From assembly GCA_021845505.1 (NCBI GenBank), contig JAJZVU010000024.1, forward strand, positions 1 through 53,674: a stretch of DNA of 53,674 nucleotides, read 5' to 3'. The notes beneath the pieces were generated by a model. The model made no database searches, was not told where the DNA came from, and saw nothing but the letters and a program-made list of their open reading frames with translations. Made by a program: the position numbers and the translations under genes. Source of the stretch: Pseudomonadota bacterium (GTDB taxonomy: Bacteria > Pseudomonadota > Gammaproteobacteria > Burkholderiales > Burkholderiaceae_C). This document shows, one piece after another, positions 19,809-49,482 of the stretch (positions within the stretch are counted from its first letter, which is position 1; each line of letters opens with the position of its first letter).

Positions 19809-20309
19809 ATGGGAAGTAGCCAGAAATTCGTCGGACGCAACCGCGCTCCGCGCGTGCAGATCGAATACGACGTCGAGCTGTACGGCGCCGAGAAGAAGGT
19901 GCAGCTGCCTTTCGTGATGGGGGTGATGGCCGACCTGGCCGGCAAGCCCGCCGATCCGCTGCCCTCGGTGGCCGACCGCAAGTTCCTCGAGTTCGACGTG
20001 GACAATTTCGACACCCGCATGAAGGCGATGAAGCCGCGGGTGGCGTTCCAGGTCCCCAACACCCTGACCGGAGAAGGCAACCTGTCGGTGGACCTGACCT
20101 TCGAGAGCATGGACGATTTCTCCCCGGCGGCCATCGCGGCCAAGGTCGAGGGCCTGAACAAGCTGCTGGAGGCGCGCCAGCAGTTGTCCAACCTGCTGAC
20201 CTACATGGACGGCAAGGGCGGCGCCGAGGAGCTGATCGGCAAGGTGTTGAAGGACCCCACGCTGCTGCAGTCGCTCGGGGCCAACCCGAAGCCGGCCGAG
20301 CAGGCTTGA
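19809..20309 (+). CDS. tssB: T6SS contractile sheath small subunit TssB
   Basis: A 166-aa protein, the normal TssB length. It has the conserved N-terminal RNRAPRVQIEYDVE strand that weaves into the sheath, then LPFVMGVMADLAG, and the central DDFSPAAIAAKVEGL segment. TssB pairs with TssC to build the contractile sheath around the Hcp tube in the cytoplasm. GGAGGAAA lies about 7 nt upstream of the ATG. It is followed by tssC with 29 nt between, the universal order. Confidence 0.97.
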   Translation: MGSSQKFVGRNRAPRVQIEYDVELYGAEKKVQLPFVMGVMADLAGKPADPLPSVADRKFLEFDVDNFDTRMKAMKPRVAFQVPNTLTGEGNLSVDLTFESMDDFSPAAIAAKVEGLNKLLEARQQLSNLLTYMDGKGGAEELIGKVLKDPTLLQSLGANPKPAEQA

Positions 20310-20338: not shown

Positions 20339-21835
20339 ATGGCGGAAGTGGAACAAAAGGCCGAGTCGGCGGCGTTTGCCGGCGTGCAGTTCGAGGGCAG
20401 CGATTTTGCCTCGCTGCTGAACAAGGAATTCAAACCCAAGTCCGACGAGGCCCGCAGCGCCGTCGAGAACGCGGTGCAGACCCTGGCCAAGCAGGCGCTG
20501 GAGCATGTGGGCACGATCAGCGCCGACACCGTGGCGAGCATCGAGGCGATGATCGCCGAGCTCGACCGCAAGTTGTCGGAACAGGTCAACCTGATCCTGC
20601 ACCACGAGGACTACCAGAAGCTGGAGTCGGCGTGGCGCGGCCTGCACTACATGGTGAACAACACGGAGACCGACGAGACGCTGAAGATCCGCGTCATGGC
20701 GATCTCCAAGCAGGAACTCGGCAAGACCCTGAAGCGCTACAAGGGCACGGCGTGGGACCAGTCGCCGCTGTTCAAGAAGCTCTACGAGGAGGAGTACGGC
20801 CAGTTCGGCGGCGAACCCTTCGGTGCGATCGTCGGCGACTACCACTTCGACCATTCGCCGCCCGACGTCGAGCTGCTGGGCGAAATGGCCAAGGTCGCCG
20901 CCGCGGCGCACGCGCCGTTCATCACCGGGGCCGCGCCCAGCGTGATGCAGATGGATTCGTGGAATGAACTCGCCAACCCGCGCGACCTGACCAAGATCTT
21001 CACCACCCCGGACTACGCGGCGTGGCGCTCGCTGCGCGAGTCCGACGATGCGCGCTACCTGGCGCTGTGCATGCCGCGCTTTCTCGGCCGCCTGCCCTAC
21101 GGCGCGAAGACCGACCCGGTGGATGCCTTCAATTTCGAGGAAGACACCGACGGCTCCGACCACGGCAAGTACGCCTGGTGCAACGCCGCGTACGCGATGG
21201 CGACCAACATCAACCGCTCGTTCAAGGAATACGGCTGGTGTTCGCGCATCCGCGGCGTCGAGTCCGGCGGCGCGGTGGTCAACCTGCCGACCCATACCTT
21301 CCCCACCGACGATGGCGGGGTCGACATGAAGTGCCCGACCGAGGTGGCGATTTCCGACCGGCGCGAGGCCGAACTGTCGAAGAACGGCTTCCTGGCGATG
21401 ATCCACCGCAAGAACTCGGATTTCGCGGCGTTCATCGGCGCGCAGTCGCTGCAAAAGCCCACCGAGTACGACGACGCCGACGCCACCGCCAACGCCGCGC
21501 TGGCGGCGCGCCTGCCCTACCTGTTCGCCTGCAACCGCTTCGCGCATTACCTCAAGTGCATGGTGCGCGACAAGATCGGCTCGTTCAAGTCGCGCGATGC
21601 GATGGAGCGGTGGCTCAACGACTGGATCTCCCGCTATGTCGACGGCGACCCGGCGAACTCCAGCGAACAGACCAAGGCCGAGCGCCCGCTGGCGGCGGCG
21701 GAGGTGGTGGTCGAGGAGGTCGAGGGGGCGCCCGGCTACTACCAGTCGAAGTTCTTCCTCAAGCCCCATTACCAGCTCGAGGGGCTCACCGTATCGCTGA
21801 GGCTGGTGTCCAAGTTGCCGTCGGAAAAGTCCTGA
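20339..21835 (+). CDS. tssC: T6SS contractile sheath large subunit TssC
   Basis: A 498-aa protein of normal length. Near the N-terminus, SDFASLLNKEFKPKSDEA is the helix that ClpV recognises in related sheaths. The middle contains ESAWRGLHYMV, FGAIVGDYHFDHSPPDVELL, FLGRLPYGAKTDPVDAF and a C-terminal part from about residue 365 (ARLPYLFACNRFAHYLK onward) that completes the sheath fold. It forms protomers with TssB. A second, C-terminally truncated sheath-like gene lies at 47530-49356. Confidence 0.97.
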   Translation: MAEVEQKAESAAFAGVQFEGSDFASLLNKEFKPKSDEARSAVENAVQTLAKQALEHVGTISADTVASIEAMIAELDRKLSEQVNLILHHEDYQKLESAWRGLHYMVNNTETDETLKIRVMAISKQELGKTLKRYKGTAWDQSPLFKKLYEEEYGQFGGEPFGAIVGDYHFDHSPPDVELLGEMAKVAAAAHAPFITGAAPSVMQMDSWNELANPRDLTKIFTTPDYAAWRSLRESDDARYLALCMPRFLGRLPYGAKTDPVDAFNFEEDTDGSDHGKYAWCNAAYAMATNINRSFKEYGWCSRIRGVESGGAVVNLPTHTFPTDDGGVDMKCPTEVAISDRREAELSKNGFLAMIHRKNSDFAAFIGAQSLQKPTEYDDADATANAALAARLPYLFACNRFAHYLKCMVRDKIGSFKSRDAMERWLNDWISRYVDGDPANSSEQTKAERPLAAAEVVVEEVEGAPGYYQSKFFLKPHYQLEGLTVSLRLVSKLPSEKS

Positions 21836-22445: not shown

Positions 22446-22489
22446 CCCTCACCCCAGCAGCGAAACCACCGACCATTGGAGATATCGAT

Positions 22490-23017: not shown

Positions 23018-23020
23018 GCC

Positions 23021-23068
23021 GCCGCAGCGCTGCCGCGAGCCTCGCGGCGGCGCGGCAGCGGCTGCGGC
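23021..23068 (+). other. Strong intergenic hairpin between hcp2 and hcp3
   Basis: The arm GCCGCAGCGCTGCCGC (23021-23036) pairs with 23052-23068 over 16 bp, broken only by one bulged G (23060); the 15-nt loop can pair internally. It starts 3 nt after the hcp2 stop. No T-tract follows, so partial termination or protection of the upstream hcp mRNA is more likely than full termination. Confidence 0.6.
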
Positions 23069-23096
23069 GCCTTGCGCCGGGCACCTGGATCGCAAC

Positions 23097-23636: not shown

Positions 23637-23651
23637 AGGCGGGGCGCGACC

Positions 23652-24335: not shown

Positions 24336-24923
24336 ATGCCCATCCAGACCTACACCGATCGCAGTTCGATGATCTCGGAGATGGAGGCCGGCTTCGAATT
24401 CGAGTTCAACTGCGCGCACTGCTCGCAACGCTGGGTCAGCGACTACAAGCCCTACCGCCTGGGCCAGCTGACGGGACTGCTCAACCGCTTCATGTTCGTG
24501 TTCAACGGCGCGATGGATGATGTCGGCCGGCTCAGCGAGAGCTTTTCCGACGTCAACATGCGCAAGGCCCACGACGCCGCGCTGGAAGCCGCGCAGCACG
24601 AGGCCGACCACCGCTTCAAGCTGTGCCACCAGTGCAGCGACGTGGTGTGCAACGACTGCTACGCCGACGAGGCGGAGTGCTGCAAGCAATGCCGTGACCG
24701 CGCCAGCGGAGCCGCGCCCGGCGCCGCCGCCGGTGGCAGCGGCGGCGCGGCGGCCGCCGCCGGCGGCGCGACCTGCCCGAACTGCAACACCGCGACCGCG
24801 GGCGGCAGATTCTGCCCGGAGTGCGGATTCGACATGGCCAGCAGCCACAAGTCCTGCCCGTCGTGCGGCACGGTGGTCGAGCGGCAGGCCCGCTTCTGCA
24901 CCGATTGCGGTCATTCCTTCTAG
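24336..24923 (+). CDS. Multi-zinc-ribbon protein in the T6SS locus
   Basis: A 195-aa protein with a strong AAGGAGG ribosome site. An N-terminal module has a CxxC at C26/C29 and a Cys-dense stretch C97, C100, C105, C108, C115, C116, C119. An Ala/Gly linker (about 123-145) leads to two zinc ribbons with paired CxxC motifs (C147/C150 with C160/C163, and C174/C177 with C188/C191), ending in a DCGHSF type tail. Four zinc sites are plausible. There is no signal peptide or membrane segment. Zinc ribbons mediate protein or nucleic-acid contacts. This is not one of the 13 core T6SS components. A role as an Hcp adaptor or regulator is inferred only from its place between the hcp array and tagJ. Confidence 0.85.
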   Translation: MPIQTYTDRSSMISEMEAGFEFEFNCAHCSQRWVSDYKPYRLGQLTGLLNRFMFVFNGAMDDVGRLSESFSDVNMRKAHDAALEAAQHEADHRFKLCHQCSDVVCNDCYADEAECCKQCRDRASGAAPGAAAGGSGGAAAAAGGATCPNCNTATAGGRFCPECGFDMASSHKSCPSCGTVVERQARFCTDCGHSF

Positions 24924-24953: not shown

Positions 24954-25784
24954 ATGAACCTCACCGCCGAAGCCGCCGACGACGCCGCCCGTGCCTTGCG
25001 CGAGGGCCATCCGAAGGCTGCGCTGGCCTCGCTCACCGCGTCGGTGCGGGCGCACCCGGCGGATGCGCGGCTGCGCGTCTTCCTGGCGCAACTGCTGTGC
25101 GTGCTCGGGCAGTGGGAGCGCGCCCACACCCAGCTCAACGTGATGGCCGACCTCGACCCCGCGGCCGTCCCGATGCGCGAAATGGTCGGCCACGCGCTGC
25201 GCTGCGAGCGCATCCGCGCAGCGGTGTTCGCCGGACGCCGCGCGCCGATGGTGTTCGGCCAACCCGAAGCCTGGCTGGCGCAACTGATCGAGGCCCTGCT
25301 GCAGCAGGGCCGCGGCGAGAAGGATCTCGCGCTCAGCCTGGCCGGCAGCGCCTTCGACGCCGCTCCCGCGGTGAGCGGACGCGTCGACGGCCAGCCTTTC
25401 GCGTGGATCGCCGATGCCGACTCGCGCCTGGGCCCGGTGCTCGAGGCCATGGTCAACGGGCGTTACTACTGGATCCCGTTCGGCCGCCTGCAGCGCCTGA
25501 CCATGTCGGCGCCGGAGGACCTGCGCGACCGGGTGTGGACGCCGGCGCAACTGCAGTTCGCCAATGGCGGCGAGGTGGTGGCGATGATCCCCACGCGCTA
25601 CCCCGGCACCGAGACCAGCGACGACGAGGCGCTGCTGATGGCCTCGCGCACCGACTGGCGCGAGGCGATGCCCGAGCACTGGCAGGGCCTGGGCCAGCGC
25701 GTGCTGGTCACCGACCAGGCCGAGTACGGGCTGCTCGACCTGCGCTCGATCGAAATCGACCCGCAGGAGGGGGCCCATGGCTGA
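24954..25784 (+). CDS. tagJ: T6SS accessory protein TagJ (ImpE)
   Basis: A 276-aa ImpE-family protein. TPR-like helices occupy residues about 1-130. The C-terminal half has AWIADADSRLGPVLE, NGRYYWIPFGRL, DLRDRVWTPAQLQFANGGEV and IPTRYPGTE, the family core. In HSI-I-type systems TagJ binds the N-terminal region of TssB and influences sheath turnover by ClpV. It is found in Imp-type loci, matching the subtype of this cluster. The end overlaps tssE by 8 nt, so the two are translationally coupled. Confidence 0.95.
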   Translation: MNLTAEAADDAARALREGHPKAALASLTASVRAHPADARLRVFLAQLLCVLGQWERAHTQLNVMADLDPAAVPMREMVGHALRCERIRAAVFAGRRAPMVFGQPEAWLAQLIEALLQQGRGEKDLALSLAGSAFDAAPAVSGRVDGQPFAWIADADSRLGPVLEAMVNGRYYWIPFGRLQRLTMSAPEDLRDRVWTPAQLQFANGGEVVAMIPTRYPGTETSDDEALLMASRTDWREAMPEHWQGLGQRVLVTDQAEYGLLDLRSIEIDPQEGAHG

Positions 25785-28186: not shown

Positions 28187-29328
28187 GCGCCGCCGCGCCG
28201 ATCGATCACGCGCCGGGCCGCGCGCCCATCGACTGGGCCGACTACTGGCGCCGCCGCGGCCATGGCTGCGACCTGTTCCAGCTGCTGCGCCGCATCGACG
28301 CCGCCCATCCGCAACTGCCGCGGCTGGGCAGCGGCAGCAGTCCGCACGACGAAGCGGTGCGGGTGAGCCAGCCCGCGGACCTGAGCTTCGCGCCGTCGGC
28401 GGTGGTCGCGCTGGAGCGCGAGGCCGACGGCGACAGGCTGTGGCTCAGGCAGCGGGTGTTCGGCCTGCTCGGCCCCAACGGCCCGTTGCCCCTGCACCTG
28501 ACCGAACTCGCCGGCGAGCGCGCGCGCATCCACGGCGACCGCACGCTGCAGGCCTTTTTCGACATGCTGACCCAGCGCTACGCGATGTTCTTCTATCGCG
28601 CGTGGGCGCAGGCGCAGCCGGTGGTCGACTGGGACCGTCCGCAGAAGTCGGCATTCCACCGCTGGCTGGGCGCGCTCAGCGGAATCGGCCTGCCGGCGCT
28701 GCGCCAGCGCGACGCCCTCGGCGACGAGGCCAAGCTGCACTTCAGCGGGCGGCTGGCGCGCCACAAGCGCGACGCCGACGGCTTGCTGGCCTGGTGCCGC
28801 AGCACCTTCGACGTGCCGTTGCGCATCCAGCAGTGGTACGGCCAGTGGCTGGCCATCGACGGCGGCGACCGCGCACGGCTTTCGCGCAAGGCGCAATCGG
28901 GGCTGGGCCGCGGACTCGTGCTGGGCAACTCGCTGTGGGACGTGCAGCACAAGTTCCTGCTGGTCATCGGCCCGCTGGACTATGCCCAGTACCGGCGATT
29001 CCTGCCCGATGGCGCGGACCTGGCCCGACTGCGCGCGCTGGTGCGCCAGTGGGTGGGGATCGAGTTCGCCTGGGACCTTCGCCTGGTGCTGCGCGCCGCC
29101 GAGGTGCCCAGGCTGCGCCTGGGCGGCGCCGCGGGGGCCGGCGGCGCCCTCGGGCGCAGCGCCTGGCTGGGCCGGCGCGCCGGCGCCGGCGATGCCGAGG
29201 ATTTCCAGATCGACGTCGAGCAGGTCATGCGCCGGGGCAGGCGCGCGCCCGGCGTCCCCGTCCATCCCGCCGCGGCAGCCGACGCCGCGGACCTTCCATC
29301 CGAACCCGCAGCGAGCTTCGAACCATGA
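28183..29328 (+). CDS. tssG: T6SS baseplate protein TssG (VasB/ImpH)
   Basis: A 381-aa protein. RRGHGCDLFQLLRRIDAAHP, VFGLLGPNGPLPLHLTE, FFDMLTQRYAMFFYRAWAQ and QKFLLVIGPL-like blocks mark TssG. The C-terminal 40 residues are Arg/Pro/Ala-rich and beyond the usual family end. It bridges TssF and TssK in the baseplate wedge. It overlaps both neighbours by 4 nt, showing tight translational coupling. Confidence 0.96.
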   Translation: MSAAAPIDHAPGRAPIDWADYWRRRGHGCDLFQLLRRIDAAHPQLPRLGSGSSPHDEAVRVSQPADLSFAPSAVVALEREADGDRLWLRQRVFGLLGPNGPLPLHLTELAGERARIHGDRTLQAFFDMLTQRYAMFFYRAWAQAQPVVDWDRPQKSAFHRWLGALSGIGLPALRQRDALGDEAKLHFSGRLARHKRDADGLLAWCRSTFDVPLRIQQWYGQWLAIDGGDRARLSRKAQSGLGRGLVLGNSLWDVQHKFLLVIGPLDYAQYRRFLPDGADLARLRALVRQWVGIEFAWDLRLVLRAAEVPRLRLGGAAGAGGALGRSAWLGRRAGAGDAEDFQIDVEQVMRRGRRAPGVPVHPAAAADAADLPSEPAASFEP

Positions 29329-32000
29329 CCGAAATCAGCCGAGTGGCCCTGTTTGGCAAGCTCAACCCGATCGCCTACAAGGCGATCGAAAGCGCCACGG
29401 TGTTTTGCAAGATGCGCGGCAACCCCTATGTCGAGCTGGTGCACTGGCTGGCGCAGCTGCTGCAGAACCCGCAGACCGACCTCGAAGCCGTGCTGCGCCA
29501 CTTCGGCCTGGACGCGTCGGCGCTGGCGCGCGACGTCACCGCCGCGCTGGACCGCCTGCCGCGCGGCTCGACGTCGATTTCGGACTTTTCCGAGCACATC
29601 GAACTGGCCATCGAGCGGGCCTGGGTCTACGCCACGCTGAAGTTCGGCGACGCCCAGGTGCGCAGCGGCTACCTGCTGCTGGCGATGCTGCGCACCGCGA
29701 GCCTGCGCAACGCCCTGCTGGCGATTTCCCGCCAGTTCGATCGCGTCAAGGCCGACGAGCTCGCCGAGGACTTCGACGCCATCTGCGGCGGCAGCGGCGA
29801 GGCCAAGCTGGGAGCGCAAGACGGCAGCGCGCTGGGTGGCGAGCAGCCCGGCGCCGACGTCGGCGCGATGGCCCCGGGGGCGATGGGCAAGCAGGAGGCG
29901 CTGAAGAAGTTCACCGTCGACCTCACCGCCCGCGCCCGCGAAGGCAAGATGGACCCGGTCAGCGGGCGCGACGAGGAGATCCGCCAGATCGTCGACATCC
30001 TGATGCGCAGGCGGCAGAACAACCCCATCCTCACCGGCGAGGCGGGGGTGGGCAAGACCGCGGTGGTCGAGGGTTTCGCCCAGCGGCTGGCGCGCGGCGA
30101 CGTGCCGCCGCAGCTCAGGGAGGTGTCGCTGCTGTCGCTGGACATCGGCCTGCTGCAGGCCGGCGCCAGCATGAAGGGGGAATTCGAGCAGCGCCTGCGC
30201 CAGGTGATCGACGAGGTGCAATCCTCGCCCAAGCCCATCATCCTGTTCATCGACGAGGTGCACACCCTGGTGGGCGCCGGCGGCGCGGCCGGCACCGGCG
30301 ACGCCGCCAACCTGCTCAAGCCGGCGCTGGCCCGCGGCGACCTGCGCACCGTCGGCGCGACCACCTGGGCCGAGTACAAGAAGTACATCGAGAAGGATCC
30401 GGCGCTGACCCGGCGCTTCCAGGTGGTGCAGGTTCCCGAGCCCGACGAGGCGAAGGCCATCGTCATGCTGCGCGGGGTGGCCAGCGTGCTGGAAAAGCAT
30501 CATCGGGTGCAACTGCTCGACGAGGCCATCGAGGCGGCGGTCAAGCTGTCGCACCGCTACATCCCGGCGCGCCAGCTTCCCGACAAGGCGGTCAGCCTGC
30601 TCGACACCGCCTGCGCGCGGGTGGCGGTCAGCCAGCACGCGACCCCGGCGGAGGTCGAGGACTGCCGCCGCCGCATCGAGTCGCTGGAGATCGAACAGGG
30701 GATCATCCAGCGCGAGGCCCAGGTCGGGGTCGACGTCGGCGAGCGCGGCACCGAGGTGGCCGCCCAGCTGGCCGGCGCGCGCGAGCGCCTGGGCGCGCTC
30801 GAGCAGCGATGGGAGGCCGAGAAGGCCGTGGTCGAGCGCATCCTCGCGCTGCGCGCCCGCCTGCGCGGCGAGGACGCGGCGGTCGACGCGCCGGCCGGCG
30901 ACGACGAGCAGCGCGCGCAGGCGCTGCAGCAACTCGGCGAGGCGCAGGCCGAACTGGCCGAGCTGCAGGGCGACGCGCCGCTGATCATGCCCTCGGTCGA
31001 CGCCCAGGCCGTGGCCTCGGTGGTCGCCGACTGGACCGGCATCCCGGTGGGCCGCATGGTGAAGAACGAGCTCGACGCCGTGCTGCGACTCGGACAGACC
31101 CTGGGCGAGCGGGTCATCGGCCAGCAGCACGGCCTGGACATGATCGCCCGCCGCATCCAGACCTCGCGTGCTCGCCTGGACAACCCCGGCAAGCCGATCG
31201 GGGTGTTCATGCTCTGCGGAACCTCCGGCGTGGGCAAGACCGAGACCGCGCTGGCGCTGGCCGAGGCACTGTACGGCGGCGAGCAGAACGTGATCACCAT
31301 CAACATGAGCGAATACCAGGAGGCCCACACGGTGTCCACGCTGAAGGGCGCGCCTCCGGGCTACGTGGGCTATGGCGAGGGTGGCGTGCTGACCGAGGCG
31401 GTGCGCCGCCGCCCCTACAGCGTGGTGCTGCTCGACGAGGTCGAGAAGGCGCATCCCGACGTGCACGAGCTGTTCTTCCAGGTGTTCGACAAGGGCTGGA
31501 TGGAAGACGGCGAGGGCCGGCTGATCGACTTCAAGAACACGATCATCCTCCTGACCTCGAACGTCGGTTCGGAGCTGATCATGAACATGTGCCGCGACCC
31601 CGACCTGCTGCCCGACCCCGACGGCCTGGCCGCCGCGCTGCAGGAGCCGCTGGTGAAGGTCTTCCCGCCGGCTCTGCTCGGGCGCATCGTGACCATCCCC
31701 TACTACCCCCTGTCGGAGGAAATGCTCGGGCGCATCGTGCGCCTGCAGCTCGAGCGCATCCGCAAGAGGGTGGAAGCCAACCACCGCATCCCGTTCGAAT
31801 ACGGCGACGACGCGGTGGCGCTGATCGTCAAGCGCTGCAACAACCCGGAGGCCGGCGGGCGCATCATCGATTCCATCCTGACCAACACCGTGCTGCCGCG
31901 GATTTCCATCGAGTTCCTCAGCCGGCTGGCGCAGGGCAACGAGCTGTCCCGCATCACCCTGGGAGCGGCCGACGGCGAGTTCACCTACAGCTACGCATGA
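29325..32000 (+). CDS. clpV: T6SS sheath-disassembly ATPase TssH (ClpV)
   Basis: An 891-aa AAA+ protein of the ClpB/Hsp100 type. Residues 1-155 form the N-domain that binds the TssC N-terminal helix. Two ATPase modules follow: Walker A GEAGVGKT (238-245) with Walker B IILFIDE (305-311), and Walker A GTSGVGKT (632-639) with Walker B VVLLDE (700-705). A coiled-coil M-domain lies around 440-550. It uses ATP to dismantle contracted sheaths so that subunits are reused. All key nucleotide-binding residues are present. It overlaps tssG by ATGA and is followed after 46 nt by vgrG. Confidence 0.97.
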   Translation: MTEISRVALFGKLNPIAYKAIESATVFCKMRGNPYVELVHWLAQLLQNPQTDLEAVLRHFGLDASALARDVTAALDRLPRGSTSISDFSEHIELAIERAWVYATLKFGDAQVRSGYLLLAMLRTASLRNALLAISRQFDRVKADELAEDFDAICGGSGEAKLGAQDGSALGGEQPGADVGAMAPGAMGKQEALKKFTVDLTARAREGKMDPVSGRDEEIRQIVDILMRRRQNNPILTGEAGVGKTAVVEGFAQRLARGDVPPQLREVSLLSLDIGLLQAGASMKGEFEQRLRQVIDEVQSSPKPIILFIDEVHTLVGAGGAAGTGDAANLLKPALARGDLRTVGATTWAEYKKYIEKDPALTRRFQVVQVPEPDEAKAIVMLRGVASVLEKHHRVQLLDEAIEAAVKLSHRYIPARQLPDKAVSLLDTACARVAVSQHATPAEVEDCRRRIESLEIEQGIIQREAQVGVDVGERGTEVAAQLAGARERLGALEQRWEAEKAVVERILALRARLRGEDAAVDAPAGDDEQRAQALQQLGEAQAELAELQGDAPLIMPSVDAQAVASVVADWTGIPVGRMVKNELDAVLRLGQTLGERVIGQQHGLDMIARRIQTSRARLDNPGKPIGVFMLCGTSGVGKTETALALAEALYGGEQNVITINMSEYQEAHTVSTLKGAPPGYVGYGEGGVLTEAVRRRPYSVVLLDEVEKAHPDVHELFFQVFDKGWMEDGEGRLIDFKNTIILLTSNVGSELIMNMCRDPDLLPDPDGLAAALQEPLVKVFPPALLGRIVTIPYYPLSEEMLGRIVRLQLERIRKRVEANHRIPFEYGDDAVALIVKRCNNPEAGGRIIDSILTNTVLPRISIEFLSRLAQGNELSRITLGAADGEFTYSYA

Positions 32001-37249: not shown

Positions 37250-37282
37250 CACCCCGTCGGCTTGCGAGCGGAGGACCCTGCG

Positions 37283-40421: not shown

Positions 40422-41759
40422 ATGACCTGGCAAAACAAAGTCATCTGGTCGGAGGGCATGTTCCTTCAGCCGCAGCATTTGCAGCAGCACGATCGCCATC
40501 TGGCGGCGCAGGTGCATGCCCGCGCCAGCGCGCAGCTGCCCTACGGCTGGGGCTATGTCTCGCTGCAACTCGACAGCGCGGCCCTCAACCTGGGCAAGAT
40601 CGCGATCCTCGCGGCGCAGGGCGTGACCCCGGACGGAGTGGTGTTCGACATCCCCGGACAGGACGCCGCGCCGGCAGCCTTCGACGTGCCCGCCGACGCC
40701 CGCGACGAGCTCGTGGTGCTGGCGCTGACCCTGCAGCGGCCCGGGGTCGCGGAGACCGACGCCGAGGCCGATGCCACGTCGATGCCTCCGCGCTACACCG
40801 CGCTGGAGGTGCAGGTGGGCGACAGCAATGTCACCGGCCAGCGCGTCGTGCCGCTGCTGCTCGGGCGCCTGAACCTGCGCCTGATGCTCGCCCGCGACGC
40901 CCAGGAAGGTTATGCGAGCCTCGGTCTGTGCCGCATCGTCGAGCGCCGCGCCGACAACAAGGTGCTGCTCGATCCCTCCTACATCCCGCCGACCCTGCAC
41001 GCCGGCGCCAACGACACGCTGGCGGGCTACCTGCGCGAGGTGCACGGGTTGCTGCATCAGCGCGGCGAGGCGCTGGCGGCGCGGCTCGCCCAGCCCGGGC
41101 GCGCGGGCGTCGGGGAAATCGCCGACTTCCTGCTGCTCGAGGCCGTCAATCGCAACGAGCCGATGTTCGCGCTGCTGCGCCGCGCGTCGGTGGTGCATCC
41201 GCGGGAGTTCTACGCGGTCGGGGCGATGCTCGCCGGCGACCTCAGCACCTTCGGTGCGCGGCGCCGCCCCGAGCAGTTGCCCGAGTACCGGCACGACGAC
41301 CTCGGGCCGTGCTTCAAGGCGCTGATGGACGACCTGCGGCGCTCGCTGTCGATGGTGCTCGAGCAGACCGCGATCCCCATCGAACTGCAGGACCGCAAGT
41401 ACGGCGTGCGGGTGGCGATCATCGCCGACGTGGAGTTGCAGCGCAGCGCCCAGTTCGTGCTGGCGGTGGCGGCTCAGATGCCCGGCGACGCCTTGCGCAC
41501 CCGCTTTCCGGCGCAGGTCAAGATCGGCACCGTGGAGAAGATCCGCGACCTGGTCAATCTCCAGCTTCCCGGCGTGGCCATCCGTCCGCTGGCGGTGGCG
41601 CCGCGGCAGATTCCCTACCACGCCGGCTACACCTATTTCGAGCTCGAGACCCGCGGCAGCGACATGTGGAAACAACTCGAGACCTCCGGGGGAATGGCCA
41701 TGCACATCGCAGGGGACTTCCCGGGGCTGGAGCTGGAGTTCTGGGCCATCCGCGCCTGA
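40422..41759 (+). CDS. tssK: T6SS baseplate protein TssK (VasE/ImpJ)
   Basis: A 445-aa protein. It starts with NKVIWSEGMFLQPQHLQQHD, the TssK hallmark. RYTALEVQV, YIPPTLHA, FAL...ASVVHPREFY and the C-terminal VPYHAGY-like segment (QIPYHAGYTYFELE) follow. The trimer joins the baseplate to the TssL/TssM membrane complex. It lies 10 nt after the PAAR-like gene and is followed by tssL and tssM in the usual order. Confidence 0.97.
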   Translation: MTWQNKVIWSEGMFLQPQHLQQHDRHLAAQVHARASAQLPYGWGYVSLQLDSAALNLGKIAILAAQGVTPDGVVFDIPGQDAAPAAFDVPADARDELVVLALTLQRPGVAETDAEADATSMPPRYTALEVQVGDSNVTGQRVVPLLLGRLNLRLMLARDAQEGYASLGLCRIVERRADNKVLLDPSYIPPTLHAGANDTLAGYLREVHGLLHQRGEALAARLAQPGRAGVGEIADFLLLEAVNRNEPMFALLRRASVVHPREFYAVGAMLAGDLSTFGARRRPEQLPEYRHDDLGPCFKALMDDLRRSLSMVLEQTAIPIELQDRKYGVRVAIIADVELQRSAQFVLAVAAQMPGDALRTRFPAQVKIGTVEKIRDLVNLQLPGVAIRPLAVAPRQIPYHAGYTYFELETRGSDMWKQLETSGGMAMHIAGDFPGLELEFWAIRA

Positions 41760-41819
41760 GTGCGGCGACCACCGGCACGCGCGCAGGCGAACACACCCCA
41801 CAGCAGACGAGGCGGCTCC

Positions 41820-43202
41820 ATGTCCGACAACGACGATCCCTTCTCGGCCTTCGGGGCCGATCACACCATCATCAAGCCCAGCGCCGGACGCGGGCGCGCT
41901 CCGGCGCCCGCAGCGCCCGCCGCCCCTGCCCCTGCCGCGGCGCCGGCCGCTGCGGGCGAGCCCGCGAGCCCGCCCGCGCGCGAGGTGCCGATGGCGCTGG
42001 ACGCGCTGATGAGCGCAAGCCTCAACCCGCTGGTGTCGGCCGCGGCGCCGCTGCTGACCGCGGCGCCGCGCATCCGCGTCACCGCCAGGCACCCCAACCC
42101 CTCGGCGCTGCGCGAGGCGCTGGCCGAGGGAATCCGCAAGTTCGAGTCCCAGGCGCGCGCCCAGGGGCTTCCCAACGACCAGGTGATCGCCACCCGCTAC
42201 ATCCTGTGCACCATGCTCGACGAGGCGGCGGCGCTGACCCCGTGGGGCGGCTCGGGGGTGTGGTCGGCGCAGAGCCTGCTGGTGCAGTTCCACAACGAGA
42301 CCTGGGGCGGCGAAAAGGTCTTCCAGCTGCTCGGCAGGCTGGCCGAGAACGTGCAGGCCAATCGCAACCTGCTGGAGCTGCTGTATGTCGTGCTGGCCTT
42401 CGGTTTCGAGGGCCGCTACCGGGTGATCGACGGCGGACGCGCGCAACTCGACTCGGTGCGCGAACGCCTGTTCCAGATGCTGCAGCAGCAGGCTCCGAAG
42501 ACCGATCCCGAGCTGTCGCCGCGCTGGGCCGGAGTGGCCAGGAAGCCGTCGCGGCTGGTCGACGGCGTGCCGCAATGGGTCGTCGCGTCGGTGCTGCTGC
42601 TGCTGCTCACCGCGGTGTGGGGCGGCATGCGGCTGCGGCTGGGCGCGCAGGCGCAGCCGGTGTTCCAGTCGCTGGCGTCGATCCACGCGCCGGTGGCGAG
42701 CAACCTGCCGCCACCACCTCCTCCGCCGCCGGCACCCAGGCCGCGGCTGGCCGTGCTGCTGGCTCCGCAGATCCGGCAAGGCCTGATCCAGGTGGCCGAC
42801 TACGCCGACCGCTCGGTGGTCACCATCCACGGCGACGGATTCTTCGAGTCGGGCAGCGCGGACATCGCGCCGTCGGTGCGCAGCCTGCTGCCGGCGATCG
42901 GCCACGCGCTGGCCGAGGTCCCCGGTCGCATCGAGATCGCGGGCAATACCGACAACCAGCCGATCCATACCCTGCGCTATCCATCGAACTACGTGCTTTC
43001 GAAGGACCGGGCCGATGCGGTGCGCGACGTGCTGACACGCTACGTCCAGCCCTCGCGCATGCAGGCCGAGGGTCTCGGTGACACCGAACCGGTGGCCAGC
43101 AACGCCACGGCCGCGGGGCGGGCGAAGAACCGACGGGTGGTGATCACCCTGTACGTGCCCGCCCAGGCGCAGGCGAGCGCGCCGCAAGCGGCCCGCCAGT
43201 GA
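41820..43202 (+). CDS. tssL: T6SS membrane protein TssL with OmpA-like domain (ImpK)
   Basis: A 460-aa protein from ATG 41820; a longer frame from GTG 41760 lacks support. A Pro/Ala-rich N-terminus leads to the DotU domain (about 80-240: RYILCTMLDEAAALTPWG, FHNETWGGEKVF, LLELLYVVLAFGFEGRYR). One transmembrane helix follows (about 251-271), then a Pro-rich linker and an OmpA/MotB-like peptidoglycan-binding domain (about 330-455). The peptidoglycan-contact D of NTDN and R of SKDRA are present, although the usual H of HTDN is N. The built-in cell-wall anchor replaces a separate TagL. Confidence 0.96.
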   Translation: MSDNDDPFSAFGADHTIIKPSAGRGRAPAPAAPAAPAPAAAPAAAGEPASPPAREVPMALDALMSASLNPLVSAAAPLLTAAPRIRVTARHPNPSALREALAEGIRKFESQARAQGLPNDQVIATRYILCTMLDEAAALTPWGGSGVWSAQSLLVQFHNETWGGEKVFQLLGRLAENVQANRNLLELLYVVLAFGFEGRYRVIDGGRAQLDSVRERLFQMLQQQAPKTDPELSPRWAGVARKPSRLVDGVPQWVVASVLLLLLTAVWGGMRLRLGAQAQPVFQSLASIHAPVASNLPPPPPPPPAPRPRLAVLLAPQIRQGLIQVADYADRSVVTIHGDGFFESGSADIAPSVRSLLPAIGHALAEVPGRIEIAGNTDNQPIHTLRYPSNYVLSKDRADAVRDVLTRYVQPSRMQAEGLGDTEPVASNATAAGRAKNRRVVITLYVPAQAQASAPQAARQ

Positions 43203-43227
43203 TCCGCACTTCTGCCGGAATCCAAGC

Positions 43228-46200
43228 ATGAAAAAGATCCTTCGCCTGCTGTTGCAGCCCCTGCTGCTGGCGCTGTATGCCTTGATCGCCCTGTCGCTGG
43301 TGCTGTGGTGGCTGACCCCGCTGATCGGTTGGGGCACCCATCATCCCTTCGCCGGCATCGGCGCCAGGCTTGCGCTGGTGGGCGCGCTGTTCGCGCTGTA
43401 TGTCGCGCTGGTGCTGCTCGGCGCGCTGCATCGGCGCCGCCGCAACAAGGCACTGGTGCACGGGCTCAAGGGCGCCTCGGCCGCCAACCGCGAGACCGAG
43501 GTGCTGCGCCAGCGCTTCGACGAAGCGCTGAAGGTCCTCGAGGACAGCCTGCGCAAACGCGGACGCCGCTCGCTGTTGCGCCGCAGCCAGCACCTGTACG
43601 AGCTGCCCTGGTACGTGTTCATCGGTGCCCCCGGCTCGGGCAAGACCACCGCGCTGCTCAACGCCGGGCTGAATTTCCCGCTGGCGGCCAAGATGGGCCA
43701 GGCTTCGATCAAGGGCGTCGGCGGTACCCGCAACTGCGACTGGTGGTTCACCGACGATGCGGTGCTGATCGACACCGCCGGGCGCTACGCGCTGCAGCAG
43801 TCGGACGAGAAGGTCGACGCCGCGGCATGGGCGCAGTTCCTGGAACTGTTGAAGAAGACCCGCCCGCGCCGCCCCCTCAACGGCATCGTGCTGACGGTCA
43901 ACGTGCAGGACCTGCTGCAGCAGGCGCCCGCCGAGCGCAAGGATCATGCGGCGCGGCTTCGCGCCCGCGTGCAGGAGCTGCATGCCAAGCTCGGCGTGCG
44001 CCCGCCGGTGTACGTGCTGGTCACCAAATGCGACCTCATCGCCGGCTTCAACGAGACCTTCGACTCGCTGGGCCAGGAACAACGCGACCAGGTATGGGGC
44101 TTCACCTTCCCCTATGCGCCGCAGTCGCGCGAGCCCGCGCTGCGCGATTTCCCGAACGAGTTCGCGGCCCTCGAGAAGCGCCTGCGCGAGCGCCTGCTGG
44201 CGCAGATGCAGACCGAGCGCGATCCCCTGCGACGCGCAGCGATCTTCGCCTTCCCGCAGCAATTCGCCGGACTCAAGGGCCTGCTCGGCGGCTTCCTCGA
44301 GCAGGTCTTCGGAGGCAGCGGAGCGCTCGACCAGGGCGGACTTCTGCGCGGGGTGTACTTCACCAGCGGCACGCAGGAAGGCACGCCCATCGACCGCGTG
44401 CTGGGAACGCTGGCCCGCACCTTCGGCGTGGACAACCGGGCCGCGTCGGTCGCCTCGTCGCGCGGCAAGAGCTACTTCCTCTCCCGCCTGCTGCGCGAGG
44501 TGATCTTCAGCGAGCAGGGACTCGTCGGCGAGGACCGCCAGGCCGAGTCGCGCCGCCGGCTGCGCCGCCGGCTGGGCATGGCCGCCATGGGATTGGTCAG
44601 CCTGCTGGTGCTGGCGGGATGGAGCGTCAGCTACCTGCGCAACAGCGCGTACATCGCCGAGGTCGCCGCGCGCGTGCCCAAGCTGCAGGCCGCGGCCGAG
44701 TCGCTGCCGCCGGCGCAGGGCAGCGACCTGGCGAACCTGCCGCAACTGCTCGATCAGCTCGACGCGGCCGCCCGCTCGAGTTCCTTCGCGGTCTCGCAAC
44801 CGCCGCTGCTGGCCACCCTCGGCCTCTACCAGGGGGGCACCTTGCAGGCGGGAGCGCGCATCGGCTATCGCAACCTGCTCGAGCACGCGCTGCTGCCGCG
44901 GGTCGCGGCACGGCTGCAGGAGCGACTGCGGGCGGCGAACAAGGGCAATCTGGAATACGCCTACGACGCGCTGAAGGCCTACCTGATGCTCTACGAGCCC
45001 CAGCATTACGACCCCAAGTTCCTGTACGACTGGATCACCCTGGACTGGGACCAGAACCTGCGGTCGACCCTCGACCAGCAGCAGCTCGCGCAGCTGGCCG
45101 CCCACCTGGAGGCGGCGTTGAAACTCGGGCCGCCGCGCGCCATCGCGGTGGAGGACAAGCCGCTCGTCGCCAGCGTGCGCAACATGCTGGCGTCGTACCC
45201 GCTGTCGTATCGGGTGCTCAGCGAAATCGAGCGCGAGGGTGTCGCCGGCAACATCCCCGCGTTCACCATCGACGGGGCCGCCGGGCCGAATGCCGCGCTG
45301 GTGTTCGCCCGCGCCAGCGGCAAGCCGCTGACCGGCGGCGTACCCGGCCTGTACACCCGCAAGGGCTACTTCGACGCCTTCTCCCCCGCGGTCGACCGCG
45401 TCGCCAGGCAGCTGGCGGCCGAGCAGTCCTGGGTCCTGGGAATTCCCGCCGAAGGCGGCGCGCAGGGGCTGCTGCACGGCGACGCCCGGCTCGACCGCAG
45501 CGTGCGCCGCCTGTACCTGGAGAAGTACATCCAGCACTGGGACGACCTGCTGTCGGATCTCCGACTGGTCCAACTCGGCAGCCTGCACCAGAGCCTGGAG
45601 GTCGCGCGCACCATGGCCGCGGCCGACTCGCCGCTGCTCGGGCTGCTGCGCGGCATCAGCCGCCAGACCCAGCTCGCGGCGATGGCCGCCGCCCAGGGCA
45701 AGCATCCGGGGCTGGACAAGCTTGCGCATGCCGGCGCGAAAGTGGCGACCAGGGTCAATCCGCTGGCGCGCATGTTCGGCAGCGGCGCACCCGCCGGCGC
45801 GCAGGCCGGTGCGCCGGTCGAGCAGATGGTCGACGACCACTTCGCGTCGCTGCACCAGCTGTTCAGCGGCCAGCCCGCGCCCATCCAGGCGAGCCTGCAA
45901 CTGTTCCAGAATGCCTATGTGCAGTTGCATGCCATCGAGGTGGCCAAGCGCACCGACTCGCCGCCGCCGACCGCCGGGATCACCGCGCTGCGCGCGGCCG
46001 CCGGGCTGCAGCCTCAGCCCATCCGCTCGATGCTCGATGCCCTGCTCGACGCGGGAGCCAACCAGGGCAGCAGCGCGCAGCGGCAGAACCTGAACTCCCA
46101 GCTCAAGCCCGTCGCCCAGTTCTGCGCGCGGGCCATCGCCGGGCGCTTTCCCTTCGCGCCGGGCTCGTCGACCGACGTGCTGCCCGATGATTTCGGGCAT

Positions 46201-46770
46201 TTCTTCGGAGTCGGCGGCATGCTCGACCAGTTCTTCCAGCAGAACCTGGCCGCCCAGGTCGATACCAACTCGACTCCCTGGCGCTACAAGCCGCTGCCGG
46301 ACGGCACGGTGCCCCCCAGCGGCCCGGGGCTGATCGAGTTCGAACGGGCGCAGCGCATCCGCCAGGCGTTCTTCCCGCAGGGCGGCCAGAAACCGGGCTT
46401 CACCATCGACTTGCGCATGCTGTCGATGGACAGCGGGCTGCCTTCGGTCACGCTGGACGTCGACGGGCACAAGCTGGTGTTCACCGCCGGCGACCACACG
46501 GCCCAGCAACTCAGCTGGCCGAGCGCGACCGTGGCCTCGCAGATCCAGCTCAGCGGCGGCGACGCGCCGGTTCAGACCTTCAATGGCCCGTGGGCGCTGT
46601 TCCGGCTGTTCGACCGCTTCCAGATCCTCCCCGGCAAGCAGCCGGAGGACTTCACCGTGGTGCTGAACCTCGGCGGCAAGAAGGCGGACCTGGAGGTCCT
46701 GTCCACCAGCGCGATCAACCCGCTGCGGATGCCCGACCTGACGCGGTTCCGCTGTCCGGGCGCGCTCTGA
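43228..46770 (+). CDS. tssM: T6SS membrane-complex protein TssM (IcmF/ImpL)
   Basis: An 1180-aa IcmF-family protein. Two N-terminal transmembrane helices (about 12-32 and 46-68) enclose a short loop; a cytoplasmic GTPase-like domain follows with Walker A GAPGSGKTT (133-141) and a DTAGRYAL element. A third helix lies at about 450-470, and the remaining 700 residues are periplasmic. The Walker A motif is intact, unlike some TssM proteins. It forms the trans-envelope channel with TssL. In TssJ-containing systems the periplasmic end binds the TssJ lipoprotein, for which no gene is found here. Confidence 0.97.
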   Translation: MKKILRLLLQPLLLALYALIALSLVLWWLTPLIGWGTHHPFAGIGARLALVGALFALYVALVLLGALHRRRRNKALVHGLKGASAANRETEVLRQRFDEALKVLEDSLRKRGRRSLLRRSQHLYELPWYVFIGAPGSGKTTALLNAGLNFPLAAKMGQASIKGVGGTRNCDWWFTDDAVLIDTAGRYALQQSDEKVDAAAWAQFLELLKKTRPRRPLNGIVLTVNVQDLLQQAPAERKDHAARLRARVQELHAKLGVRPPVYVLVTKCDLIAGFNETFDSLGQEQRDQVWGFTFPYAPQSREPALRDFPNEFAALEKRLRERLLAQMQTERDPLRRAAIFAFPQQFAGLKGLLGGFLEQVFGGSGALDQGGLLRGVYFTSGTQEGTPIDRVLGTLARTFGVDNRAASVASSRGKSYFLSRLLREVIFSEQGLVGEDRQAESRRRLRRRLGMAAMGLVSLLVLAGWSVSYLRNSAYIAEVAARVPKLQAAAESLPPAQGSDLANLPQLLDQLDAAARSSSFAVSQPPLLATLGLYQGGTLQAGARIGYRNLLEHALLPRVAARLQERLRAANKGNLEYAYDALKAYLMLYEPQHYDPKFLYDWITLDWDQNLRSTLDQQQLAQLAAHLEAALKLGPPRAIAVEDKPLVASVRNMLASYPLSYRVLSEIEREGVAGNIPAFTIDGAAGPNAALVFARASGKPLTGGVPGLYTRKGYFDAFSPAVDRVARQLAAEQSWVLGIPAEGGAQGLLHGDARLDRSVRRLYLEKYIQHWDDLLSDLRLVQLGSLHQSLEVARTMAAADSPLLGLLRGISRQTQLAAMAAAQGKHPGLDKLAHAGAKVATRVNPLARMFGSGAPAGAQAGAPVEQMVDDHFASLHQLFSGQPAPIQASLQLFQNAYVQLHAIEVAKRTDSPPPTAGITALRAAAGLQPQPIRSMLDALLDAGANQGSSAQRQNLNSQLKPVAQFCARAIAGRFPFAPGSSTDVLPDDFGHFFGVGGMLDQFFQQNLAAQVDTNSTPWRYKPLPDGTVPPSGPGLIEFERAQRIRQAFFPQGGQKPGFTIDLRMLSMDSGLPSVTLDVDGHKLVFTAGDHTAQQLSWPSATVASQIQLSGGDAPVQTFNGPWALFRLFDRFQILPGKQPEDFTVVLNLGGKKADLEVLSTSAINPLRMPDLTRFRCPGAL

Positions 46771-46780
46771 GACCCCCGCG

Positions 46781-47500
46781 ATGCCATCCATGCACGCCCC
46801 CGGTTGGTACGGCAAGCTGCCCTCGCTGGGCGACTTCGCGTCGCGCCGCGTGGACGACGACTTCCTGCAGGCGTGGGACGGGTGGCTGGCGCACGACCTC
46901 GCCGGCTGGCGCAGCTCCGACCCGCAGGGCTGGCTGCAGCGCTATCTGCGGGCGTCCAGCTGCCTGTTCCTGGCGGTGCCCGGCGCGCTGGGCCACCCGC
47001 ACGGCGCGCTGGCCGGGGTGCTGACGCCGTCGGTGGACCGGGTCGGACGCTACTTTCCGCTGACCCTGCACGCCGCGCTGCCGCGCCTGCCGCGCGACGA
47101 GGAGGAATGCGCCGACTTGCTGGGCTGGCTGCTGGAACTCGACGATGTCGCGGTGCAGGCCCTGCAGGACGACTGGCCGATCCCGCGCCTGGAGGACGAA
47201 CTGCTGGGACGCGCCCCGGGGGCCCCGTCCTGGTGCGGAGGGGCGTCGCGGGCAGCCGACGCCGCCGGGCCGCAGCCGGGACCGGCGGCAGCCGACGCGC
47301 CGGCCCGCTGGGCGCGGCAATGGACCGCGGACCGCGAGGCCCAGCCCTGCGACCAGCGCATCTGGTGGTTCGGCACCGACGACGACGGCAGCGCCCGCTT
47401 GCGCGGCAGCCAGGGCCTCGAGCCCGACTGGCTGCCGGCGCTGCTGGGCGCGCATGTCACCGACGATCCCGCCGGCGCGACGGCCGCCGACGGGTGTTGA
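46781..47500 (+). CDS. tagF: T6SS post-translational repressor TagF (ImpM)
   Basis: A 239-aa protein. GWYGKLPSLGDFASRRVDDD followed by LQAWDGWLAHDL is the TagF/DUF2094 signature. PSVDRVGRYFPLTL and a C-terminal QRIWWFGTDDDG complete it. TagF holds the T6SS inactive independently of the PpkA/PppA route, in some species by binding Fha. The linker at about 145-190 is Ala/Pro-rich. It begins 10 nt after tssM and is followed after 29 nt by the sheath-like fusion gene. Confidence 0.93.
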   Translation: MPSMHAPGWYGKLPSLGDFASRRVDDDFLQAWDGWLAHDLAGWRSSDPQGWLQRYLRASSCLFLAVPGALGHPHGALAGVLTPSVDRVGRYFPLTLHAALPRLPRDEEECADLLGWLLELDDVAVQALQDDWPIPRLEDELLGRAPGAPSWCGGASRAADAAGPQPGPAAADAPARWARQWTADREAQPCDQRIWWFGTDDDGSARLRGSQGLEPDWLPALLGAHVTDDPAGATAADGC

Positions 47501-47529
47501 TCAGACCCCTCATCATCGAAGGAAAAACC

Positions 47530-49356
47530 ATGGCCGAGGATGCAAGCTGGGAACCCGACTTTGGCACCATCGCCGGCGACGCGCCGCAGTGGCCCGCGAA
47601 GCGGCCGGTGCGGGTGCTGCTGATGGGCGACTTCGGCGCCGCGGCGCTCAACGGGCGACTCGACGACGGCGACGCGATCGCCGGGCGCAAGCCGATGAAA
47701 GTCGAATTCGACACGCTGGAGGATTCGCTCGGCCGCATGGACCTGCGCCTGAGCCTGCCGATCGGCGCCGATGCCATCCCGGTGGAGATCCCCATCGGCG
47801 ACCTCGATGCCTTCCACCCCGACAGCCTGTATGCCAACGTGGAGATGTTCTCCGCGCTGTCGGCGCTGCGCAAGCGACTGAACAATGCGTCGACCTTCGA
47901 GGCCGCGGCGCGCGAGGTGCGGGCGTGGGGCGAGCAGCCGCGGCGCAAGGCCTCCGGAGTGGCCAGGCGCAGCCGCTCGCGCGGCGCCAGCCTGCCCGCC
48001 AAGGCACGGCGCGACACCTTCGCCCAGCTGCTGCAGCAACCCGCGCGCGGCGGCGGCGAGGCCGGCGCGATCGACGAACTGCTGCGCAACGTCGTCGGGC
48101 CGCTGGTGCAGCCCGCGCAGAGCCCGGACAAGGCGCGCTTGCTGTCGATCGTCGACGAGGCGCTGGCCGACGCCATGCGGGCGGTGCTGCACCAGGCCGA
48201 CTTCCAGAACGTCGAGGCGCTGTGGCGAGGGGCCGACTTCCTGCTGCGCCGCATCGAGACCAGCCATCAGTTGCAGGTCGCGCTGCTCGACCTCAGCGCC
48301 GAGGAACTCGCCGCCGACCTCAGCAGCGTCGATGACCTTTCGGAGTCGGGACTGCACCGCCTGCTGGTCGACAAGGCCGCCGAGGACGCCGACGGGGGAT
48401 ACACCTACCTGGTCGGGTGCTATCGCTTCGAGGCCACGCCTCCGCAGTTCGAGTTGCTCGGCCGCATGGCGCGGGTGGCCGCGCGCGCCGGCGCGACCTT
48501 TGTGACCAGCGTGGACATCGATCCCTTCACCAACCGCAAGGAGCCGCCGCACCCGCTGGTGTGCTCGACCATCGAGAAACTGCGCGCGCTGCCCGAGGCT
48601 GCCTGCCTGGCTCTGGTCGGCCCCGGCTTCCTGCTGCGCCACCCCTACGGCAAGCGCACCGATCCGATCACCACTTTCGCCTTCGAGGAGTTCCAGCGCA
48701 GCGCCGGACTGCGCGGCATGCTGTGGGGCAACCCGGCGCTGCTGCTGGCCTGCGTGCTGTGCCAGCGCGGCACCCCGCAGGTGGTCGGCGAGCTGCCCTT
48801 CTACACCTATGTCGACGACGACGGCGACCGCGTCGCCCTGCCCTGCACCGACCGCCTGGTCAACGCGGCGGCTGCGGCGTTGTTGCACGACTACGGCATC
48901 CTCGGCCTGATGGCGCACAAGGGCGAACCCCTGGTTCGCCTGACGGGAATCGAGGCGATCAACGGCGCGGCGCTCAGCGCCGCGCCGCTCGCGGCGCGTC
49001 CGCGCTTCGACGACTCGCGGGTGTCGCTGGGCAGCGGCCCCGGCGCCAGGAGCGCGGCTGCCGGCGGCGCCAAGGCCGCCGCGGGCGACGGCGACGACGA
49101 CGCGGCGGGCGACGACTCCTCCGACTCCTCCGACTCCTCCGACTCCTCCGACTCCGGCGACTCCGGCGACGATTCGGCGGACACCTCCTCCGACAGCGGC
49201 AGCGGCGACGACGACCTGCAGGCCATGCTGTCCAAGCTGGGAGACGACTCCGACTCGTCCTCGGATGCCGGGGATGCCGGCGACGCGCCGTCGTCCGACG
49301 GCGGCGACGCCGAGATGGATCCCGAACTCGCCGCGCTGCTCAAGGACCTGGGGTGA
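47530..49356 (+). CDS. TssB/TssC-like fusion paralogue with acidic Ser/Asp-rich tail
   Basis: A 608-aa protein with an AAGGAAAAACC ribosome site. Residues about 20-135 track TssB (PVRVLLMGDFGA; RKPMKVEFDTLEDSLGRMD; DLDAFHPDSLYANVEMFSAL). Residues about 225-490 track TssC (VEALWRGADFLLRRIE, GGYTYLVGCYRF, ELLGRMARVAARAGATFV, FLLRHPYGKRTDPITTF, YGILGLMAHKGEP). It lacks the N-terminal TssB strand and the C-terminal third of TssC that build the sheath lattice. Instead it ends in about 100 residues of Asp/Ser/Gly with two leucine elements (LQAMLSKLG and LAALLKDLG). It probably cannot polymerise like the TssB-TssC at 19809-21835. Roles as sheath cap, assembly factor or inhibitor are inference. Rhizobial Imp loci have a second TssC-like protein, ImpD, which may be related. 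Confidence 0.85.
   Translation: MAEDASWEPDFGTIAGDAPQWPAKRPVRVLLMGDFGAAALNGRLDDGDAIAGRKPMKVEFDTLEDSLGRMDLRLSLPIGADAIPVEIPIGDLDAFHPDSLYANVEMFSALSALRKRLNNASTFEAAAREVRAWGEQPRRKASGVARRSRSRGASLPAKARRDTFAQLLQQPARGGGEAGAIDELLRNVVGPLVQPAQSPDKARLLSIVDEALADAMRAVLHQADFQNVEALWRGADFLLRRIETSHQLQVALLDLSAEELAADLSSVDDLSESGLHRLLVDKAAEDADGGYTYLVGCYRFEATPPQFELLGRMARVAARAGATFVTSVDIDPFTNRKEPPHPLVCSTIEKLRALPEAACLALVGPGFLLRHPYGKRTDPITTFAFEEFQRSAGLRGMLWGNPALLLACVLCQRGTPQVVGELPFYTYVDDDGDRVALPCTDRLVNAAAAALLHDYGILGLMAHKGEPLVRLTGIEAINGAALSAAPLAARPRFDDSRVSLGSGPGARSAAAGGAKAAAGDGDDDAAGDDSSDSSDSSDSSDSGDSGDDSADTSSDSGSGDDDLQAMLSKLGDDSDSSSDAGDAGDAPSSDGGDAEMDPELAALLKDLG
49114..49167 (+). repeat. 9-bp tandem repeat encoding DSS in the fusion gene
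   Basis: GACTCCTCC occurs four times exactly (49114-49149), followed by two GACTCCGGC variants (49150-49167). It encodes Asp-Ser-Ser and Asp-Ser-Gly in the acidic tail. Unit length keeps the frame, so length variation is tolerated. Confidence 0.95.
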
Positions 49357-49366
49357 GACGATGCGC

Positions 49367-49383
49367 TCGCGCCAGGAGCGCGA
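49367..49383. terminator. Small stem-loop after the T6SS locus
   Basis: TCGCGC (49367-49372) and GCGCGA (49378-49383) form a 6-bp stem with a 5-nt loop, 11 nt after the last T6SS stop codon. No T-tract follows. It is a weak candidate for the end of the T6SS transcript. Confidence 0.25.
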
Positions 49384-49482
49384 TCACCTGTTTGCGGTGT
49401 TCCGGAAAACCGCCGATGATGCTGCAATGCACCGCCTGAACGGTCCATTTCCGTGCGAGACCGAAACGGGGGAGACTTCCAA

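Follow-up and report, generated by a model that had tools for sequence, protein, structure and literature searches.

In the type VI secretion system (T6SS) of Pseudomonas aeruginosa, the inner layer of the sheath consists of TssC strands 11-13 together with the N-terminal strand of TssB, and this arrangement interlocks the protomers (PMC5807055). Roseobacters encode TssCL, a TssB-TssC fusion with two VipA domains and a VipB domain, which was not detected outside Alphaproteobacteria (PMC9515649), and Agrobacterium encodes TssC40, the ImpD product, which is needed for Hcp secretion (PMC3702570). Here, we describe a fused TssB-core/TssC protein encoded in a 53,674-nucleotide stretch of DNA from a Burkholderiales bacterium (contig JAJZVU010000024.1; hereafter the window), whose T6SS locus also carries canonical tssB (19809..20309, + strand; Pfam VipA, 195.5 bits) and canonical tssC (20339..21835, +; VipB and VipB_2 both present). 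The protein lacks the parts that interlock sheath protomers and ends in a flexible acidic tail with two conserved short helices. The original prediction, made from the sequence alone, had pointed to an extra sheath-like gene besides these two, and an open reading frame (ORF) with an ATG start and 608 codons for amino acids does lie at 47530..49356 (+), its identity being supported by Pfam and by relatives.

The fused protein joins a TssB-like core to a TssC-like part in one chain, as had been predicted. Specifically, the core at residues 24-123 (47599..47898, +) aligns by hhalign with residues 32-132 of the 166-residue TssB of the window at a probability of 92%, and residues 162-478 (48013..48963, +) align with residues 21-372 of its 498-residue TssC at 99.9%, the profile alignments being built on 71 sequences. 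The prediction had described the second part as the middle of TssC; the match to TssC stands, yet most of the TssC N-terminal stretch is held as well. Pfam likewise places T6SS_VipA at residues 26-119 (29.7 bits, cut-off 24; a partial match to model positions 27-122 of 155) and VipB with its best stretch at residues 205-331 (116.6 bits, cut-off 27). The protein stays below the NCBIfam equivalog cut-offs for both TssC (108.1 vs 271.5 bits) and TssB (26.1 vs 97.25 bits), and a PHROGs search with it gave no match. AlphaFold2 predicts a confident sheath fold over both halves, from approximately residue 11 to residue 480, so the lack of a TssB-like fold that had been named as a possible refutation is not what the model gives. 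In a fold search, the TssC body matches the TssB-TssC sheath (5n8n and 3j9g), and the TssB half matches more weakly.

Missing from this chain are the TssB N-terminus, the TssB C-terminus and the C-terminal inner domain of TssC, in line with the predicted loss of interlocking parts. Pfam finds no VipB_2, the inner domain, in the fused protein; in the canonical TssC of the window this domain scores 148.7 bits. The alignment starts at TssB residue 32 and leaves out the N-terminal donor strand, and before residue 27 the AlphaFold2 model shows a one-residue bridge at residue 13 and nothing else. This composition is a family trait: VipA and VipB occur in 36 of the 36 members scanned and VipB_2 in none of them (E 0.01). 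Because VipB_2 and the TssB N-terminal donor strand are absent, the fused protein and its family should not polymerise as a usual sheath.

The C-terminal portion, approximately residues 491-608 (49000..49353, +), is an acidic tail recognised by its composition and by low model confidence, with predicted local distance difference test scores (pLDDT) below 50 at residues 496-544, 546-551, 553-557 and 577-595, that is, at 79 of residues 496-595. The acidic tail that had been predicted is present and roughly 100 residues long, but does not hold the approximately 100 acidic residues stated in the prediction: the last 110 residues contain 28 D, 2 E, 25 S and 4 K/R. Its Ser/Asp run was considered as a conserved tail part and rejected, since it is encoded by a variable 9-bp tandem repeat (49113..49164, +; 5.8 copies, 95% match) that is not retained in the near relative L153. 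What is conserved, in place of the Ser/Asp composition that had been highlighted, is a pair of short helices. The sole predicted helices of the tail coincide with its conserved places, namely residues 561-570 (49210..49239, +; motif LQAMLSKL) and residues 598-606 within the C-terminal motif stretch 598-608 (49321..49353, +; motif LAALLKDL). Six leucines, labelled L563, L566, L567, L600, L604 and L607 by the alignment tool, show conservation in 90% or more of the 71 rows.

Tails were compared between the window protein and the best 80 of the 180 relatives matched in a scan of named contigs. An LDALLASL-type pattern occurs 171 times in these 81 tails, compared with 0.58 occurrences in total in shuffled tails; the pattern was derived from the very tails counted and the relatives are not independent, and the excess therefore shows no more than that the motif count is not due to composition. 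At least one motif is present in 80 of the 81 tails and at least two in 74 of them (for six proteins in which the profile extended into the tail, the final 110 residues served as the tail). Four of the 81 proteins are cut by a contig end, and among the 77 with an intact end the motif forms the C-terminal end in 74. In the remaining three (L166, L223 and L232), a helix of this type lies 3-4 residues short of the C-terminus, and in two of them the first motif position is F. The linker varies in composition, being Ser/Asp-rich in the window protein and Ala/Pro/Glu-rich elsewhere. Outside the fused proteins, a strong motif match was found in 2 of 8190 other six-frame ORFs of the loci, one of which is a separate TssB-array ORF discussed below. 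By eye, the tail helices resemble DPTLLQSL at the C-terminus of TssB and DFASLL at the N-terminus of TssC; a profile scan of the T6SS proteins of the window placed nothing above the shuffled level, and this likeness is therefore no more than a lead. The helices may also resemble the N-terminal CheY-binding motif of FliM.

The best 80 of the 180 matched relatives come from Sphaerotilaceae and Comamonadaceae (Burkholderiales), Leisingera, Salipiger, Roseibium, a Rhizobium, metagenome-assembled genomes (MAGs) of Acetobacteraceae and Rhodospirillales, MAGs of Planctomycetota and one Spartobacteria MAG (Verrucomicrobiota). The Planctomycetota and Spartobacteria members are known from MAG contigs alone, several of them short, and binning errors could underlie their taxonomic labels. 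In genome searches at successive taxonomic ranks, in which fused rows were chosen by eye from the match span, we found 16 fused relatives besides the window's own among 200 genomes of the same family (one recognised as fused through a separate look), two besides its own among 250 genomes of the same order, 16 among 369 genomes of the same class (one cut by a contig end), and two more in the phylum search, both of the same class. This distribution adds to the Alphaproteobacteria-only range of the fusion (PMC9515649), and the domain anatomy adds to plasmid annotations that name fused relatives "contractile sheath large subunit".

In a quick tree of 106 rows, 83 tailed proteins lie on one side of a branch with a Shimodaira-Hasegawa-like approximate likelihood ratio test (SH-aLRT) value of 100, and 23 tail-less relatives, many on long branches, lie on the opposite side. 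L142, whose tail lacks a good motif, was counted as tailed in the tree and omitted from data set A3; L123 was omitted from set A2, as it is cut by a contig end, and ten of 81 from set A4 (seven near-copies and three with unclear start). The tail-less part of the family comprises L111-L117, L119-L131, L141 and L144-L146. A recognised vgrG lies in the fetched stretch of 10 of the 23 tail-less relatives in the tree, and the neighbours of tail-less L119 are VWA, BatD and transporter genes.

Queries from the window recognised one or more further T6SS genes in the neighbourhood of the fused gene in 69 of the 80 relatives. In the window itself, the fused gene starts 29 nt after the stop of tagF (46781..47500, +; NCBIfam TIGR03373, 95.9 bits), which confirms the predicted position beside this gene. 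As a general feature, the tagF link does not hold: the nearest recognised upstream T6SS gene is tagF in 27 of the 80 relatives, in 21 of them within about 135 nt (with start codons chosen by script), and clpV in 28. Nearest recognised is not the same as adjacent, as in L148, where clpV and the fusion are separated by two other genes. In L168, L169, L171, L180 and L182, the fused gene follows tagF at a distance of about 1.9-2.1 kb, and in L169 and L171 the intervening ORF carries, by eye, a protein-kinase-like signature.

Taken together, we favour, with a probability of about one half, that the fused protein is a sheath-derived accessory of TagJ-class T6SSs whose tail helices dock another T6SS component. 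The fused chain would fold like one sheath protomer, with the TssB core joined to the TssC body, and, without the inner domain and the donor strands that link protomers, it would not itself polymerise. We infer that it attaches to the sheath, at the surface or at an end, probably via retained outer-layer contacts, and that another T6SS component docks onto the two short amphipathic helices displayed by the flexible acidic tail; docking would thereby control sheath assembly, stability or recycling. In roseobacters a TssB is joined to the core, and therefore there is a plain reason to place the fused protein at the sheath. Several observations weigh against this proposal, in addition to the circularity of the motif pattern noted above. 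AlphaFold2 predicts the tail helices with modest confidence (means of 60-77 over blocks of 10 residues), and when the motif profile was run against the remaining T6SS proteins of the window, no match rose above the level of shuffled proteins. No T6SS neighbour was recognised around L188 and L232, each flanked by 7 kb or more on either side. The fused protein is also dispensable for having a T6SS, because, of the 28 genomes of its genus, 14 have a TssC-type match (E 1e-30) but only 2, own genome included, have the fused protein.

More tentatively, such proteins might represent a class of T6SS parts, in which protomers without the polymerising domain act as hubs and their conserved C-terminal helices recruit a T6SS factor to the sheath in many copies, setting firing or recycling, with tens of looser copies carried on a true TssB in roseobacters. 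Were this somewhat doubtful generalisation true, the class would set when the sheath fires or is recycled. How TagJ-class T6SSs set the length, firing and recycling of their sheaths is understood only in part, and the fused protein offers a handle on it: a sheath homologue without its polymerising domain has nevertheless kept short C-terminal helices across distant bacteria.

The retained sheath fold and the absence of VipB_2 and the TssB N-terminal part would also suit a cap or terminator, as first suggested from the sequence, which sits on the growing end of the sheath and, without an inner domain, stops or blocks growth, the tail serving only to solubilise the protein or to repel subunits. 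The linker, however, varies freely in composition whereas the short helices are conserved, which indicates that the tail is more than a charge carrier, and we consider a cap unlikely. Another candidate role is that of a sheath-recycling adaptor, whose tail would mimic the TssC N-terminal helix recognised by ClpV (with TagJ) and bring the unfoldase to the sheath or keep it off. In line with this, the 28 relatives counted above have clpV as their nearest recognised T6SS gene upstream, the last helix reads DFSVLL or DFSILL in L143, L223 and L232, similar to the TssC N-terminal EFSALL or DFASLL, and a contact between ClpV and the TssC helix is known elsewhere (PMC4239648, PMC5048182). On the other hand, a ClpV with the charged groove marked by Arg6 was found in 20 of the 20 N-termini picked by pattern from 30 ClpV ORFs, and by eye in the ClpV of the window (for the partner Asp of the groove, the pattern caught four, an unreliable count); the charged groove of P. 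aeruginosa ClpV1 does not take the TssC helix (PMC4239648 or PMC5048182). Additionally, the motif profile did not raise TssC above the shuffled level, and we regard an adaptor of this kind as improbable too.

It is considerably harder to credit the fused protein as part of a first ring, in which it would supply the outer protomer body and TssE the inner domain, so that the two would form a mixed starter ring on the baseplate. The Pfam name of the missing domain is gpW/gp25-like, TssE is listed as a gp25 homologue (PMC3702570) and TssE is a member of the locus; yet these parts are matched by name only, and T6SSs without such a protein are common, its own genus included. Least credible of all is a decaying sheath gene without function. 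Its presence is indeed patchy, as the 2 of 28 genomes of its own genus illustrate, but the frame is open, residues are invariant over 71 sequences and the C-terminal motif is kept in 74 of 77 proteins, so that decay can practically be set aside. The preferred reading remains a sheath-derived accessory with docking helices.

The fused gene is the last member of a long same-strand T6SS cluster, which contains tssA, tssB, tssC, several hcp genes, a zinc-ribbon gene, tagJ, tssE, tssF, tssG, clpV and vgrG, followed by a DUF4123-type gene, two genes without family match, fha, a DUF4280 gene, tssK, tssL, tssM and tagF. Among these, tssG, vgrG, tagJ and tssM were assigned by phmmer matches to the annotated loci L147 and L148. 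Specifically, tagJ (ImpE; 24954..25784, +) matches in L148, where TagJ is annotated in the same order, and NCBIfam gives it weak tetratricopeptide-repeat matches only; the ORF containing clpV spans 28440..32000 (+; Pfam), its true start lying further in, with the N-terminus MTEISR; and tssK, tssL and tssM, upstream of tagF, span 40422..46770 (+), the first two assigned by Pfam and tssM through the annotated gene of L148. A site scan detected no promoter-like or terminator-like sites in 46600-49800. Four apparent hcp-type genes follow tssC at 21888-24323, those at 23097 and 23652 recognised by Pfam and those at 21888 and 22490 from similarity in sequence; in Eleftheria terrae (L147), three consecutive hcp genes are annotated. 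Between the hcp genes and tagJ, inside the cluster, lies a gene for a double zinc-ribbon protein (24336-24923). The FHA protein (37262-39181) carries DPFADLFG / DPFANLD repeats in its linker and TssL (41760-43202) carries DDPFSAFG in its N-terminal region; these DPF-type stretches are possibly a second set of short docking motifs. A ShlB/FhaC-type outer-membrane transporter is encoded downstream of the cluster in the same orientation (49453-51240). The genome holds three VipB-bearing genes in all: the canonical tssC of the window, one on contig C21 and the fused gene.

Among known systems, ImpD / TssC40 of rhizobia and Agrobacterium is similar in being a second TssC-like protein with VipB beside a canonical TssC. 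An ImpD identity was nevertheless rejected. In a presumed rhizobial family of the same phylum, two adjacent tssC-type genes occur in 8 of the 14 genomes with a match, and the second genes of four of these eight, scanned for domains, all encode VipB and VipB_2 and no VipA, the reverse of the window protein; homology to an ordinary ImpD, raised beforehand as a possible refutation, is thus not what was found. One such ImpD-type gene (L252) shares 82-83% identity, among the 15 matches listed, with a TssC gene carried by named Rhizobium plasmids, and that gene abuts tagJ where annotated, for instance in R. johnstonii 3841. The fused gene has a different placement, after tagF and far from tssC and tagJ, and the secretion result for TssC40 must not be transferred to its family. 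The TssB-TssC sheath (5n8n and 3j9g) has the fold in common with the fused protein, which differs in being a single chain without VipB_2 and without the TssB N-terminal part. The single-chain sheath proteins of phages, pyocins and extracellular contractile injection systems (eCIS) are set apart in another way, as the match of the fused protein does not extend into their C-terminal part. TagB1 and TagJ, which stabilise the sheath in T6SSs with short TssA, are likewise accessory sheath factors, but they are about 30 kDa and the passages describing them state no sheath homology (PMC7896307).

The closest counterpart is TssCL, which contradicts the view that the fusion is an unrecognised architecture. 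Within the open-licence literature searched for a TssB-TssC fusion or a second TssC, PMC9515649 alone describes the fusion, and the relevant passages of PMC13055248, PMC13098142 and PMC6423157 hold nothing on one; the text on TssCL in PMC9515649 makes no mention of tail motifs. The fusion core is therefore already known for one group, and what we did not meet in that literature is its wider spread, the absence of VipB_2 as a family trait, the distinction from ImpD and the conserved tail helices. Like the window protein, TssCL places a VipA-like region and a VipB core in one chain beside canonical tssB and tssC. Of the 80 loci, 16 have a TssB signature upstream in the same frame, and all 16 belong to Alphaproteobacteria. 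In Leisingera sp. ANG-M7 (L230), a full TssB is followed by a long acidic array with 9 strict (59 loose) motif copies and then by core and tail; Roseobacter SK209-2-6 (L203) has the same order with 11 strict (44 loose) copies. L217, L224 and L231 have few motifs after the TssB signature (0-1 strict, 3-7 loose). In Pseudophaeobacter leonis (L225:5875-9749), the TssB-array part and the fused core lie in two slightly overlapping frames, which reflects either a natural split or a sequence error. The window protein, unlike TssCL of ANG-M7, opens with neither a full TssB nor a motif array, only 23 residues preceding its aligned core. It does carry two LDALLASL-type helices in its tail, and the roseobacter loci L203-L206, L210 and L230, with two tail motifs each, fall in the same tailed branch.
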